From: Mesorhizobium sp.
Lineage (GTDB): Bacteria > Pseudomonadota > Alphaproteobacteria > Rhizobiales > Rhizobiaceae
Direction of reading: 5' to 3'
DNA: 64,000 nt
Assembly: GCA_004017535.1 (NCBI GenBank)
Contig: SAJS01000003.1
Location: forward strand, 372,001-436,000
Both the position numbers and the translations under genes were made by a program. Position 1 is the first letter of the stretch, and each line of letters starts with the position of its first letter. The notes below the pieces were generated by a model. The model was not told the origin of the DNA, made no database searches, and worked only from the letters and a program-made list of their open reading frames with translations. Below are positions 44,513-50,294 of this stretch, one piece after another.

Positions 44513-46803
44513 CCGTTCATGACATGAAGCACGCCGCGTCGGACAGCGCGCGCCTCGAAGCGGTCGGCGGGCGCCTGTCGCGCGTCGACGGCCCGGCCAA
44601 GATCACCGGCGCGGCGAAATACGCCTTAGAGCAGCAGCTCGAAGGGCTGACGCACGCGGTGCTGGTCGGCGCGACCATCGCCGCCGGCAAGGTCTCGGCC
44701 ATCGACAGCCGCGCGGCCGAGACCGCGCCCGGCGTGCTCGCCGTGCTCACGCCCGACACGATCATGGAACTGAAGGGCGCGTCGGACTGGCTGGGCAACC
44801 CTTCGCCGCAGCCGACCTACAACCCCCTCGCCCGCGAGGTCACCTATTCGGGCCAGCATATCGCGGCGGTGGTGGCCGAGACTTTCGAGCAGGCGGTGGC
44901 CGCCGCGGCGCTGGTCAAGGTCTGGTATGACGAGACACCGGCCATCGTCGATTTGAGCGACGGCAAGGCCGGCGACGGCATCCCGATCGACGCCATGACC
45001 AAGGAATGGGGCGATGCTGAAGCCGCCTTCGCCGCTGCCCCGGTGCGCATCTGCGCGGCCTACAACACGCCGCGCGAGTTCCAGGCGGCGATGGAGCCGC
45101 ATGGGCTGATCGCGCGCTGGGAAGGCGACGCGCTGACCATCTGGGAGCCGAGCCAATGGCTGGACGGGATGGCGCGCACTTATGCCGAGTGGTTCGGCGT
45201 GCCGTTCGAGAATGTGCGGCTGGTCTCGCCCTATATAGGCGGCGGCTTCGGGTCGAAGGCGCTGGCGCTGGCGCACAGCGCGGTGGCGGCGGCCGCAGCC
45301 AAGATGCTGGGGCGGCCGGTCAAGCTGGTGCTCAACCGCCCGCAGAATTTCACCTCCTATGGCGGCCGCGCGGCGACGCGGCAGACGGTGGCGATCGGCG
45401 CCGACAGGGATGGCAGGATCCAGTCGATCGTGCATCGCGGCGTCAACGAAACCGCGGTCGACGGCATGTGGGTCGAACCGCTCGGCTCGGTGACCTCGAT
45501 TATGTACGCCACGCCGAATTTCTCCTCGAAGCAGAATGTGGTGCGGGTGAACACCGTGGTGCCGGGAGCAAAGCGCGCGCCGGGCGAGAACCCCAGCGCC
45601 TTCGGCATCGAATGCGCCATCGACGAGCTGGCTCATGAGCTCGGCATCGATCCGCTGGAGATGCGGCTGATCAACTATGCCGAGCAGGATCCGCATGCGA
45701 AGAAGGCGTGGTCGACGCGCCAGTTGCGCGAAGCCTTTGCCGCCGGCGCCGAAGCCTTCGGCTGGGCGAAACGTTCGCCTCAGCCGCGCTCGATGCGAGA
45801 CGGTCGTCAACTCATCGGCTGGGGCATGGCGGCTGGCACCTATCCGGTGCGGCGGGCTCATGGCGAGGCGGTGGTGAAGCTCCTCGCCGACGGTTCGGTC
45901 GTGGTCGAAAGCTCCTCGATCGACATGGGCCAGGGCACCTACACGATCCTGGCCCAAACGGCGGCCGAGACGCTCGGCGTTCCAGTGGAGAATGTCTCGG
46001 TGAAACTCGGCGACTCGCATTTCGCCCGCGCGGGCGTCACCGGCGGCTCGCGGCTGGCCGGCGTCATGACCGGCGCCGTCTACAAGGCGGCCGGCCAGGC
46101 GCTGGACGAGCTCATCGGCCTGGCACTCTCCGATCCGCGCTCGCCGTTCCAGAAGCTGCAGGCGAACACGCTGCAAGTTCGGGACGGCCGCATCGCCTCG
46201 TCGCGCGGCGAAGGGCCGGAGCTGTCGATCGCCGAGTTCATGGCGGCTGTCGGCCGCGAGCAGATCGAAGCCAAGGGCGATACGCTGCCGGCCAGCACGA
46301 CAGCGGAGGAGCGCTACGCGAACTACACGACCATCGCCAAATCGATCCCGCACACCGAGGGCGACTGGTCGCGTCATTCCTGGTGCGCGCATTTCGTCGA
46401 GGTGCGGGTAGATGAGGACTTCGGCACGGTGCGCGTGTCGCGCGTGGTGTCGGCGCTCGATTCCGGCCGGCTCTACAATCCGAAGCTGGCGGAGAGCCAG
46501 TGGAAGGGCGGCATCATCATGGGCATCGGCCAAGCGCTGCTCGAGGAAGGCATCGTCGATCGCCGCCACGGCCGCATCGTCAACGGCAATTTCGCCGACT
46601 ACATGCTGCCTACCAATGCCGACATCCCCGATATCCAGACCATCTCGGTCGGCATCCCCGACCCGCACTCCTCCGCCCTCGGCGGCAAGGGGGTGGGCGA
46701 GCTGGCGATCGTGGGGATCGCGCCGGCGATTGCGAACGCGGTGTTCCACGCGACGGGGAAGCGGGTGCGGGATCTGCCGATCACGCTGGAGAAGCTGATC
46801 TGA
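44509..46803 (+). CDS. paoC: Aldehyde oxidoreductase, molybdopterin subunit
   Basis: 764 residues from ATG 44509. Xanthine-dehydrogenase-type layout: domain 1 with GPAKITGAAKYALE, molybdopterin contacts YIGGGFGSKALALAHS and MGQGTYTILAQTAAETLG, and the C-terminal GGKGVGELAIVGIAPAIANA with the catalytic Glu of the GVGE motif. It oxidises aldehydes with water. Maturation genes (molybdenum-cofactor sulfurase or XdhC/PaoD) do not follow it here; a repeat does. A short decayed copy of its 3' end lies at 49666-49770. Confidence 0.92.
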   Translation: MTVHDMKHAASDSARLEAVGGRLSRVDGPAKITGAAKYALEQQLEGLTHAVLVGATIAAGKVSAIDSRAAETAPGVLAVLTPDTIMELKGASDWLGNPSPQPTYNPLAREVTYSGQHIAAVVAETFEQAVAAAALVKVWYDETPAIVDLSDGKAGDGIPIDAMTKEWGDAEAAFAAAPVRICAAYNTPREFQAAMEPHGLIARWEGDALTIWEPSQWLDGMARTYAEWFGVPFENVRLVSPYIGGGFGSKALALAHSAVAAAAAKMLGRPVKLVLNRPQNFTSYGGRAATRQTVAIGADRDGRIQSIVHRGVNETAVDGMWVEPLGSVTSIMYATPNFSSKQNVVRVNTVVPGAKRAPGENPSAFGIECAIDELAHELGIDPLEMRLINYAEQDPHAKKAWSTRQLREAFAAGAEAFGWAKRSPQPRSMRDGRQLIGWGMAAGTYPVRRAHGEAVVKLLADGSVVVESSSIDMGQGTYTILAQTAAETLGVPVENVSVKLGDSHFARAGVTGGSRLAGVMTGAVYKAAGQALDELIGLALSDPRSPFQKLQANTLQVRDGRIASSRGEGPELSIAEFMAAVGREQIEAKGDTLPASTTAEERYANYTTIAKSIPHTEGDWSRHSWCAHFVEVRVDEDFGTVRVSRVVSALDSGRLYNPKLAESQWKGGIIMGIGQALLEEGIVDRRHGRIVNGNFADYMLPTNADIPDIQTISVGIPDPHSSALGGKGVGELAIVGIAPAIANAVFHATGKRVRDLPITLEKLI

Positions 46804-49648: not shown

Positions 49649-49665
49649 CCGCAAGCCCACGCCAT

Positions 49666-49770
49666 GGCGGCAAGGGCGTCGGGAACTGGCGATCGCGGGC
49701 ATCGCCCCGGCGATTGCCATGCGGTGTTCTGTGCCACGGGGGAAGGGTTACGCTGGAGAAGTTGATCTAG
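49666..49770 (+). pseudogene. Decayed fragment of a molybdopterin-subunit gene 3' end
   Basis: The segment repeats the end of paoC (46681-46803) with several deletions: GGCGGCAAGGGCGTCGGGAA versus the intact GGCGGCAAGGGGGTGGGCGA, then a shared CGGGCATCGCC-like and GCGGTGTTC run, and the end CTGGAGAAGTTGATCTAG. Frame is broken. It probably marks loss of a second oxidoreductase gene, or a local copy. Confidence 0.7.
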
Positions 49771-49781
49771 CGCCAGCCTAT

Positions 49782-49850
49782 CTTCGTCATTCTAGGGCGG
49801 AGCAAGGAGCGAAGCGACGCGCGCAGACCCTAGAATCCATGCCGTGACGC
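49782..49850 (+). repeat. Left 69-bp inverted arm (family C) around the GIY-YIG gene
   Basis: Identical to the reverse complement of 50226-50294 at 68 of 69 positions (G/A difference near the inner end). It begins CTTCGTCATTCTAGGGCGG and ends ATGCCGTGACGC. A further inverted ACGGTGCAGAA lies inside, at 49863-49873 versus 50200-50210. Confidence 0.95.
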
Positions 49851-49876
49851 CTGAGAGCCACCACGGTGCAGAACGC

Positions 49877-50164
49877 TCACCAGCCGATCCCGCGAAAGAG
49901 TTCGAACCATTCCGGATTGGTCTTCTCGATCAATTCGACCTTCCATTGGCGTGGCCAGCGCTTCAGCGATGTCTCACGTTGGATAGCATCGGCGATGTCG
50001 AAGTATTCCTCGTACCAGACCAGACGCTGCACACCGTAGCGGCTGGTAAAGCTAGAGCCTTGGCCAGCCTTGTGCTCGGGCATCCGGCGAGCGAGGTCAT
50101 TGGTGACACCGATGTAGATCGTGCCGCCTTTCTGGCTTGCGGTCATGTAGACGTAGCCTGTCAT
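49877..50164 (-). CDS. GIY-YIG nuclease-domain protein, repeat-bracketed
   Basis: 95 residues from ATG 50164. The GIY-YIG core reads YVYMTASQKGGTIYIGVTND, i.e. the Y-x-Y start, the T(I)YIG half and the Arg in LARRMPEHKAG. RETSLKRWPRQWKVELIEK and the final NPEWFELF carry the Glu that closes the active site. It belongs to the small UPF0213-like bacterial single-domain group. The whole gene, and nothing else, lies within a near-perfect 69-bp inverted repeat. Nuclease activity is expected; a role for the repeats is speculation. Confidence 0.9.
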   Translation of the reverse strand: MTGYVYMTASQKGGTIYIGVTNDLARRMPEHKAGQGSSFTSRYGVQRLVWYEEYFDIADAIQRETSLKRWPRQWKVELIEKTNPEWFELFRGIGW

Positions 50165-50225
50165 GTCGGAATCTTAGCTGGCGATGTTGCAAGTAGCCAT
50201 TCTGCACCGTTGCATCTTACGGCCC

Positions 50226-50294
50226 GCGTCATGGCATGGATTCTAGGGTCTGCGCGCGTCGCTTCGCTCCTTGCTCCGCCCTAGAATGACGAAG
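50226..50294 (-). repeat. Right 69-bp inverted arm (family C) around the GIY-YIG gene
   Basis: Mirror of 49782-49850, ending CCCTAGAATGACGAAG. The pair, the nuclease gene and inner short repeats span 49782-50294. Confidence 0.95.

Follow-up and report, generated by a model that had tools for sequence, protein, structure and literature searches.

A GIY-YIG nuclease gene between CGTC-tagged REPs in Mesorhizobium: a candidate REP/nuclease partnership

What is a lone nuclease gene doing inside an almost perfect inverted repeat? The question is raised by a unit of 513 bp (49782..50294) in a 64,000-nt stretch of Mesorhizobium sp. DNA, here called the window. The first-pass annotation had described a near-perfect 69-bp inverted repeat, a shorter inverted pair within it and a single GIY-YIG gene between the arms, and all of this is borne out: the arms (49782-49850 and 50226-50294) are 69 nt long, 99% complementary and 375 nt apart, the inner pair (49863-49873 and 50200-50210) reads as described, and a single-domain gene with the Pfam domain PF01541, an ORF of 95 aa, lies between them on the minus strand (49877..50164, stop codon included). 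What was missed is that the arms fall in a known class of REPs, that REPs without the gene are far more numerous than the gene units, and that the partnership crosses phyla.

Anatomy of the unit and the class of its arms

Both arms have the same layout, consisting of an outward-facing CGTC tag, a first stem strand ATTCTAGGG, a loop of 30 nt, a second stem strand CCCTAGAAT and a CCA tail. In the left arm (49782..49850, plus strand) the tag lies at 49785-49788, the two stem strands at 49789-49797 and 49828-49836, and the tail at 49837-49839. The right arm (50226..50294, minus strand) is an inverted copy of the same tagged REP, and its tag is found as the reverse complement at 50288-50291. In a survey of CGTC-tagged REPs, these repeats are described as having a tag, CGTC or TGTC, that remains unpaired, a stem of 8-9 bp starting with AT, a loop of 4-5 nt and a CCA tail; they occur mostly as inverted dimers and mostly in alphaproteobacteria, S. 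meliloti, A. lipoferum and N. aromaticivorans being among the species that carry them (Di Nocera et al. 2013, PMC3733652). Judged by the unpaired tag, the AT-first stem, the CCA tail and the inverted dimers, which are common to both, the window arms and their relatives are members of this class, with the difference that the window loop has 30 nt and those of the survey 4-5 nt; short loops are common beside the gene in other species. In four other loci (L114, L277, L280 and L294) nested palindromes expand the REP loops, like the 30-nt loop of the window.

The stem is conserved as a paired structure in the genome of the window. Among 56 arms, selected on sequence similarity without regard to pairing, 472 of the 504 cells of the nine-position stem were paired. 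The highest value in 500 shuffles, which ignore relatedness, was 421. Compensatory changes such as T-A to C-G were observed. The left 92 nt do not form an exceptionally stable hairpin, as they fold no better than shuffles (z -0.10). When one gene-less REPIN (an inverted REP pair) was folded as single-stranded DNA, it formed one long hairpin of -80.8 kcal/mol (shuffles -35.6, sd 3.3; z -13.7).

A plus-strand frame of 146 aa (49844-50284) overlaps the nuclease gene and part of the right arm, and no support for it as a gene was found. Directly to the left of the unit lies a different dispersed repeat (49650-49775, also at 46663-46758), which has a 79% match elsewhere in the same genome and matches in many genomes of the genus.

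Gene-less relatives and variable sites

A similarity search of the window's own genome gave 115 matching pieces, which were merged by eye into at least 40 places; this is a lower bound, as 40 of 92 first-look candidates were scored. The 39 places other than that of the window were retrieved. The hairpin-core pattern had 65 matches (up to 3 mismatches) in this genome and none in the reversed control. The genome holds a second full-length unit of gene plus arms (G000:C17:7356-7883, 79% identical to the window unit), gene-less REPINs and single REPs. The cassette is therefore not unique to the window, and chance or an assembly artefact can be ruled out, since both gene units lie inside contigs and the core matches stand at 65 against zero for the control. 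GIY-YIG hits in the genome numbered three, two of them small genes that both lie inside such arms and the third in a frame of 732 aa, which by its size is UvrC.

Many of the places consist of two inverted units that match positions 1-92 and 418-513 of the query, that is, both ends without the gene. Sixteen of the 39 places outside the window could be aligned as gene-less REPINs. In ten of these the centre is GCAGAATTCTGC or close to it (exact in three), and the other six have roughly 10-50 bp extra at the centre. The window gene occupies this centre, between GCAGAA and ATTCTGC. Because gene-less REPINs join there and the gene sits there, the inner pair of the window is the split REPIN centre, with its left half ACGGTGCAGAA at 49863..49873 and its right half TTCTGCACCGT at 50200..50210 (both plus strand). 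The gene-less REPINs resemble this element minus its gene, and the unit as a whole is a REPIN with a nuclease gene at its centre of dyad, with termini common to the gene units of the genus.

The motifs GATTGGCC... and ...GGCCAATC stand 10-20 bp outside many REPINs of this genome (L018, L022, L029, L038, L041 and others) and could be an outer inverted repeat or a target preference. We do not claim that the unit was inserted at the centre of a larger palindrome, because an outer inverted repeat reached the threshold in just 2 of the 30 gene units and, among 28 REPIN places of this genome, in 2.

The first-pass annotation had suggested a mobile or repeat-maintaining cassette and had named, as what would support it, the same arms around the gene at different loci and empty sites in related strains; such arms were found, and so were sites without the gene in relatives. 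The 31 gene units of the genus, the two of the window's genome included, stand at about 17 different sites (clustered by eye), so the gene is neither confined to one locus nor devoid of arms. Their left end reads ..TCGTCAT in 29 of 31, and their right end ATGACGA in 31 of 31 (one mismatch). By eye, no direct repeat was seen at the junctions of these 31 units that would indicate a target-site duplication, and the boundaries of the unit-free sites are imperfect.

The site of the window was read in seven of the 21 relatives with any match to it. Three have no unit there (G320, G314 and G329), one has another CGTC REP pair (G374) and one a single REP (G303). G368 holds a 57-bp palindrome (L172, about 2284-2341) with the same outer ends, CTTCGTCAT...ATGACGAAG, and an unrelated centre, which may be a scar or a separate element that shares these ends. 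An exact empty counterpart was not found among the seven. In G324 the unit is 98-99% identical to that of the window while identity in the shared right flank is about 89-94% and the left DNA differs, as recombination between strains would give, and at one site of the genus the unit occurs in both orientations (L210 versus L222). Both observations are consistent with a passive spread, where the gene would ride on REPINs moved by homologous recombination, replication slippage or horizontal transfer and the nuclease would have no role. We consider this quite improbable, as it leaves unexplained why CGTC REPs accompany this gene family in many phyla and do not accompany ParE toxin genes, and why the REP types are gene-specific (see below).

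Six places of the window's genome were further checked at the orthologous sites of five relatives (30 loci). At the site of the second gene unit, G324 has the gene, G320, G314 and G368 lack the gene and have a pair made up of two different REP types, and G374 has neither. Neither a unit match nor a REP detected by our REP finder was present at seven of the 30 loci (G374 at L009, L011 and L012; G314 at L010 and L012; G320 at L018; G324 at L016), where mostly some of the flank is also missing. S. meliloti Ak57 has the gene and REPs between gltA and lpxB, where Sinorhizobium sp. K101 has a REP-like remnant of about 100 bp, without the gene and without a REP that the finder accepts as intact. In Azospirillum lipoferum 4B the gene, with REP pairs on both sides, lies between sufB and sufC, and it is absent from this site in A. 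ramasamyi, A. oryzae and Azospirillum sp. B510, where the flanks are 95-97% identical. No REP was found in the gaps of about 90-130 bp of these three relatives (by the finder in B510, by eye in the others).

Sites with a REP pair or its remnant and no gene, as well as the position of the gene at the REPIN centre, also fit the strongest rival to an active role of the nuclease, namely that REP pairs serve as landing sites and are spread by something else. Here another agent would spread the CGTC REPINs, and a homing-type nuclease gene would insert, as a guest in a safe harbour, into these abundant and harmless pairs. This explanation agrees less well with the REP-free Azospirillum sites and with the gene-specific REP types described below, and we regard it as unlikely.

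The nuclease and its association with CGTC REPs across bacteria

The 95-aa protein matches GIY-YIG (PF01541) with an E-value of 1.4e-16 and 60.9 bits (cut-off 22.6), and its Pfam domains are GIY-YIG and T5orf172 only; a separate DNA-binding domain was not found. It received no name from NCBIfam (E up to 0.001) or PADLOC (E up to 0.01). It was also considered as a gene of a defence system, which was rejected as no PADLOC family matched, and as a phage gene, which was rejected as there were only four weak PHROG matches and one weak phage record. Among 85 of 90 proteins from the alphaproteobacterial set described below (five were dropped by a filter on stops and length), Y6, R27, H31 and E64 are conserved in 85/85, N83 in 84/85 and Y17 in 83/85, residues which correspond to those of the active site in I-TevI, UvrC and other GIY-YIG enzymes. 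The predicted active-site Tyr, Tyr, Arg and Glu of GIY-YIG nucleases are intact in the window protein.

By profile, the solved relatives are the UPF0213 proteins 1zg2 (E 2.8e-7) and 1ywl (E 4.2e-5) and, weakly, UvrC (E 0.035). Such relatives would fit a UvrC-like repair or hairpin-processing nuclease of the host, for which the flanking REPs would be regulatory hairpins or targets for removal. In line with this, three small COG2827 genes of Caulobacter crescentus are discussed as repair genes in the available part of one study, which reports an SOS box for one of them, CC3518 (PMC1839093). If the family serves REP movement, that movement may be damage-induced there. The distribution of the gene makes a plain host repair enzyme very improbable in our view: among 289 alphaproteobacterial genomes a match at E 1e-3 or better was found in 124, with up to 11 per genome, and none at this level in 165. 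In addition, its presence varies between close relatives and its REP families are gene-specific. One enzyme may also both repair DNA and move REPs.

The nuclease is associated with CGTC REPs. From the stronger of the alphaproteobacterial matches listed we analysed a class set of 90 genes, made up of 30 loci, the one in the window among them, and the next 60 down the list (the second copy of its genome, L009, was treated apart). The finder detected a CGTC REP within 200 bp of 53 of these genes, on both sides in 33 and as tag-outward pairs in 29, and none near 37. In controls it was negative for all 90 genes in every one of three shuffles and for all 30 ParE toxin genes of the same class, the one gene control whose flanks were complete. 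With a stricter finder the counts were 45 of 90 nuclease genes and 0 of 30 ParE genes. REP density was 3.32/kb within 200 bp of the gene against 0.06-0.31 farther out. A test blind to the REP sequence, searching for an inverted repeat between the 250-bp flanks, was positive in 67 and negative in 23 of the 90 genes, compared with 1 of 30 ParE loci, 1 of 88 window pairs 700-950 bp away and 15% of mispaired flanks. CGTC REPs were thus not found beside an unrelated small mobile gene, as sampled by 30 ParE loci, and these loci together with the distal windows of the nuclease loci led us to reject the idea that REPs gather near any small mobile gene.

The same holds in an independent set that consists of the best 80 of 541 confirmed matches and covers Bacteroidetes, Chloroflexi, CPR bacteria, Zixibacteria, Ignavibacteria, Nitrospirae, Omnitrophus, Kiritimatiellae and several proteobacterial classes (the named set). 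Among these best 80 of 541 a REP lies within 200 bp of 63 genes, on both sides in 41 and as tag-outward pairs in 37, and no finder REP in 17; the density was 4.56/kb within 200 bp and 0.07-0.39 beyond, and the inverted repeat was present in 58 and absent in 21 of 79; of 62 distal windows, 1 was positive. The inverted-repeat thresholds, derived separately for each set by shuffling, are not quite the same. By one signal or the other, 81 of the 90 class genes and 77 of the 80 named genes (best 80 of 541) were positive, and neither signal was seen in 9 and 3, respectively. At eight UvrC-type loci of REP-rich genomes no REP was found within about 1.5 kb on each side of the domain.

Genes of the family are present in S. 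meliloti, A. lipoferum and N. aromaticivorans. Finder REPs adjoin the gene in the first two, and in the third it has a flanking inverted repeat that the finder rejects. In ten records of a plasmid collection, those of these three species among them, a finder REP was within 200 bp of the gene in five, and in one record (Rhizobium L51/94) no inverted repeat at all was found around the gene. Three records of this collection (NZ_AP026896.1, NZ_CP119140.1 and NZ_CP119142.1; 4.9 and 2.2 Mb) are chromosome-like in size. In several Bradyrhizobium loci (L286, L255, L236 and others) and in Azospirillum (L355) the gene lies between two REP pairs, with up to four REPs, and not inside one, and in the Bradyrhizobium loci with two pairs two REP types alternate.

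Each nuclease seems to have its own type of REP, because the flanks match within a gene and the similarities of protein and stem are correlated. At least two genes were analysed in each of 18 genomes. There the median score of a flank against the other flank of its own gene was 25.5, against 9.9 to the flanks of sister genes, and the own flank was the better match in 42 of 48 genes (p 7e-8). For the 59 named genes that have an outward REP, the similarity of the proteins was correlated with that of the stems (r 0.36), also across phyla or classes as labelled from record titles (r 0.26; largest of 999 permutations 0.23, p 0.001). A gene that had merely landed in REP pairs spread by another agent would not be expected to have left and right flanks that match each other and not those of its sisters, nor a protein that covaries with the REP stem across phyla.

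Nuclease and REPs also occur in the same genomes. A generic REP pattern, which misses long-loop REPs including those of the window, was positive in 114 of the 289 class genomes, with five control hits in all. The nuclease (E 1e-15 or better) was found in 32 of 40 genomes with at least 10 REPs and in 49 of 249 others (odds ratio 16, p 1.5e-13, relatedness ignored), and its presence in most REP-rich genomes is a further point against the landing-site explanation. The remaining eight REP-rich genomes have no strong nuclease match. In seven of them (G045, G093, G094, G105, G236, G268 and G277, with 12-140 pattern matches) the sole GIY-YIG hit is in a UvrC-sized frame of 609-696 aa, which may reflect a lost enzyme, an incomplete assembly or another mover; the eighth (G081) has three smaller GIY-YIG hits with no finder REP near any of them.

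Within the genus of the window, the gene core was matched in 61 of 119 genomes. With 0, 1, 2, 3 and at least 4 gene copies (lower bounds, as six candidates were scored per genome) the median number of REPs was 14, 13, 27, 38 and 90 (rho 0.50, relatedness ignored). Genomes with one gene thus have no more REPs than those without (medians 13 versus 14), gene-less genomes have up to 73 REPs, and a gene match was found in 4 of 13 genomes that lack the window type of REP.

The proposed partnership in the light of known systems

We consider it likely that the unit represents a partnership of REPs and nuclease, a CGTC "REPtron", that resembles the RAYT systems with an unrelated nuclease, and that the nuclease acts on its own REPs. 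RAYTs are REP-associated tyrosine transposases, Y1/HUH enzymes of the IS200/IS605 type that go with GTAG REPs. As in those systems, inverted REPs bracket the gene, gene-less REPINs are present in higher copy, each copy of the enzyme has its own REP type and presence is variable between relatives. The differences are in the enzyme, for which Pfam gives GIY-YIG and T5orf172 and no Y1/HUH transposase, and in the flanking REPs, which carry CGTC or TGTC and not GTAG.

GIY-YIG homing endonucleases, of the I-TevI type and as free-standing phage genes, share with the present family the catalytic domain and a selfish-looking distribution. Here, in contrast, no separate DNA-binding domain accompanies the catalytic one, a REP family of its own flanks the gene, the many unrelated sites of the genus units take the place of one conserved target, and the phage match is single and weak. 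The pairs of IS elements and MITEs, where an autonomous unit occurs together with gene-less units with the same ends, are similar in having gene units and gene-less units with the same ends, but in our case there is no known transposase, a target duplication was not found and the ends are REP hairpins. COG2827/UPF0213 proteins (PDB 1zg2, 1ywl) are by profile the same small single-domain type of nuclease, and in the literature listings searched they are described as hypothetical or UvrC-like, with no link to repeats.

From the anatomy, the specificity and the distribution we infer that the nuclease would mobilise the repeats, so that their movement may be nuclease-driven. The nuclease would recognise its cognate REP as a hairpin, a cruciform or a tagged single strand and cut at or beside it, after which replication or repair would copy REPIN units, sometimes with the gene, into new intergenic sites. 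It would in this way do for CGTC REPs, by other chemistry, what the Y1/HUH enzyme RAYT is thought to do for GTAG REPs.

In the available text of the CGTC survey these repeats are apparently without a dedicated transposase, and the survey ends on that open question, whereas here a GIY-YIG gene is their regular companion (PMC3733652). For GTAG-1 repeats in Pseudomonas the survey cites work that followed loss and gain by deep population sequencing. The words "nuclease" and "GIY-YIG" are absent from the available text of RepRanger (PMC12306157). Among the papers listed by full-text searches, no publication linking GIY-YIG with REPs was found, judging by titles and abstract openings; the novelty is provisional, since the literature covered has no preprints and few subscription papers.

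The nuclease is a strong candidate for the spreader of a large class of bacterial repeats without a known mover. On balance, we favour a wider reading as well, that the stand-alone GIY-YIG family serves the entire CGTC REP superfamily across phyla as its dedicated enzyme and forms a second, independently evolved REP/enzyme system beside RAYT, whose cutting would be directed by a hairpin or cruciform and would not use tyrosine chemistry as RAYT does. For the CGTC REPs, a widespread class both within and outside the alphaproteobacteria, a candidate enzyme can now be named, with its anatomy given in a tractable genome. If the partnership is true, a single-domain nuclease of 95 residues together with palindromic ends would amount to a strikingly small mobile system that parallels the RAYT/REPIN partnership independently, and it would give a meaning to the scattered annotations "GIY-YIG nuclease family" and "excinuclease ABC subunit C".
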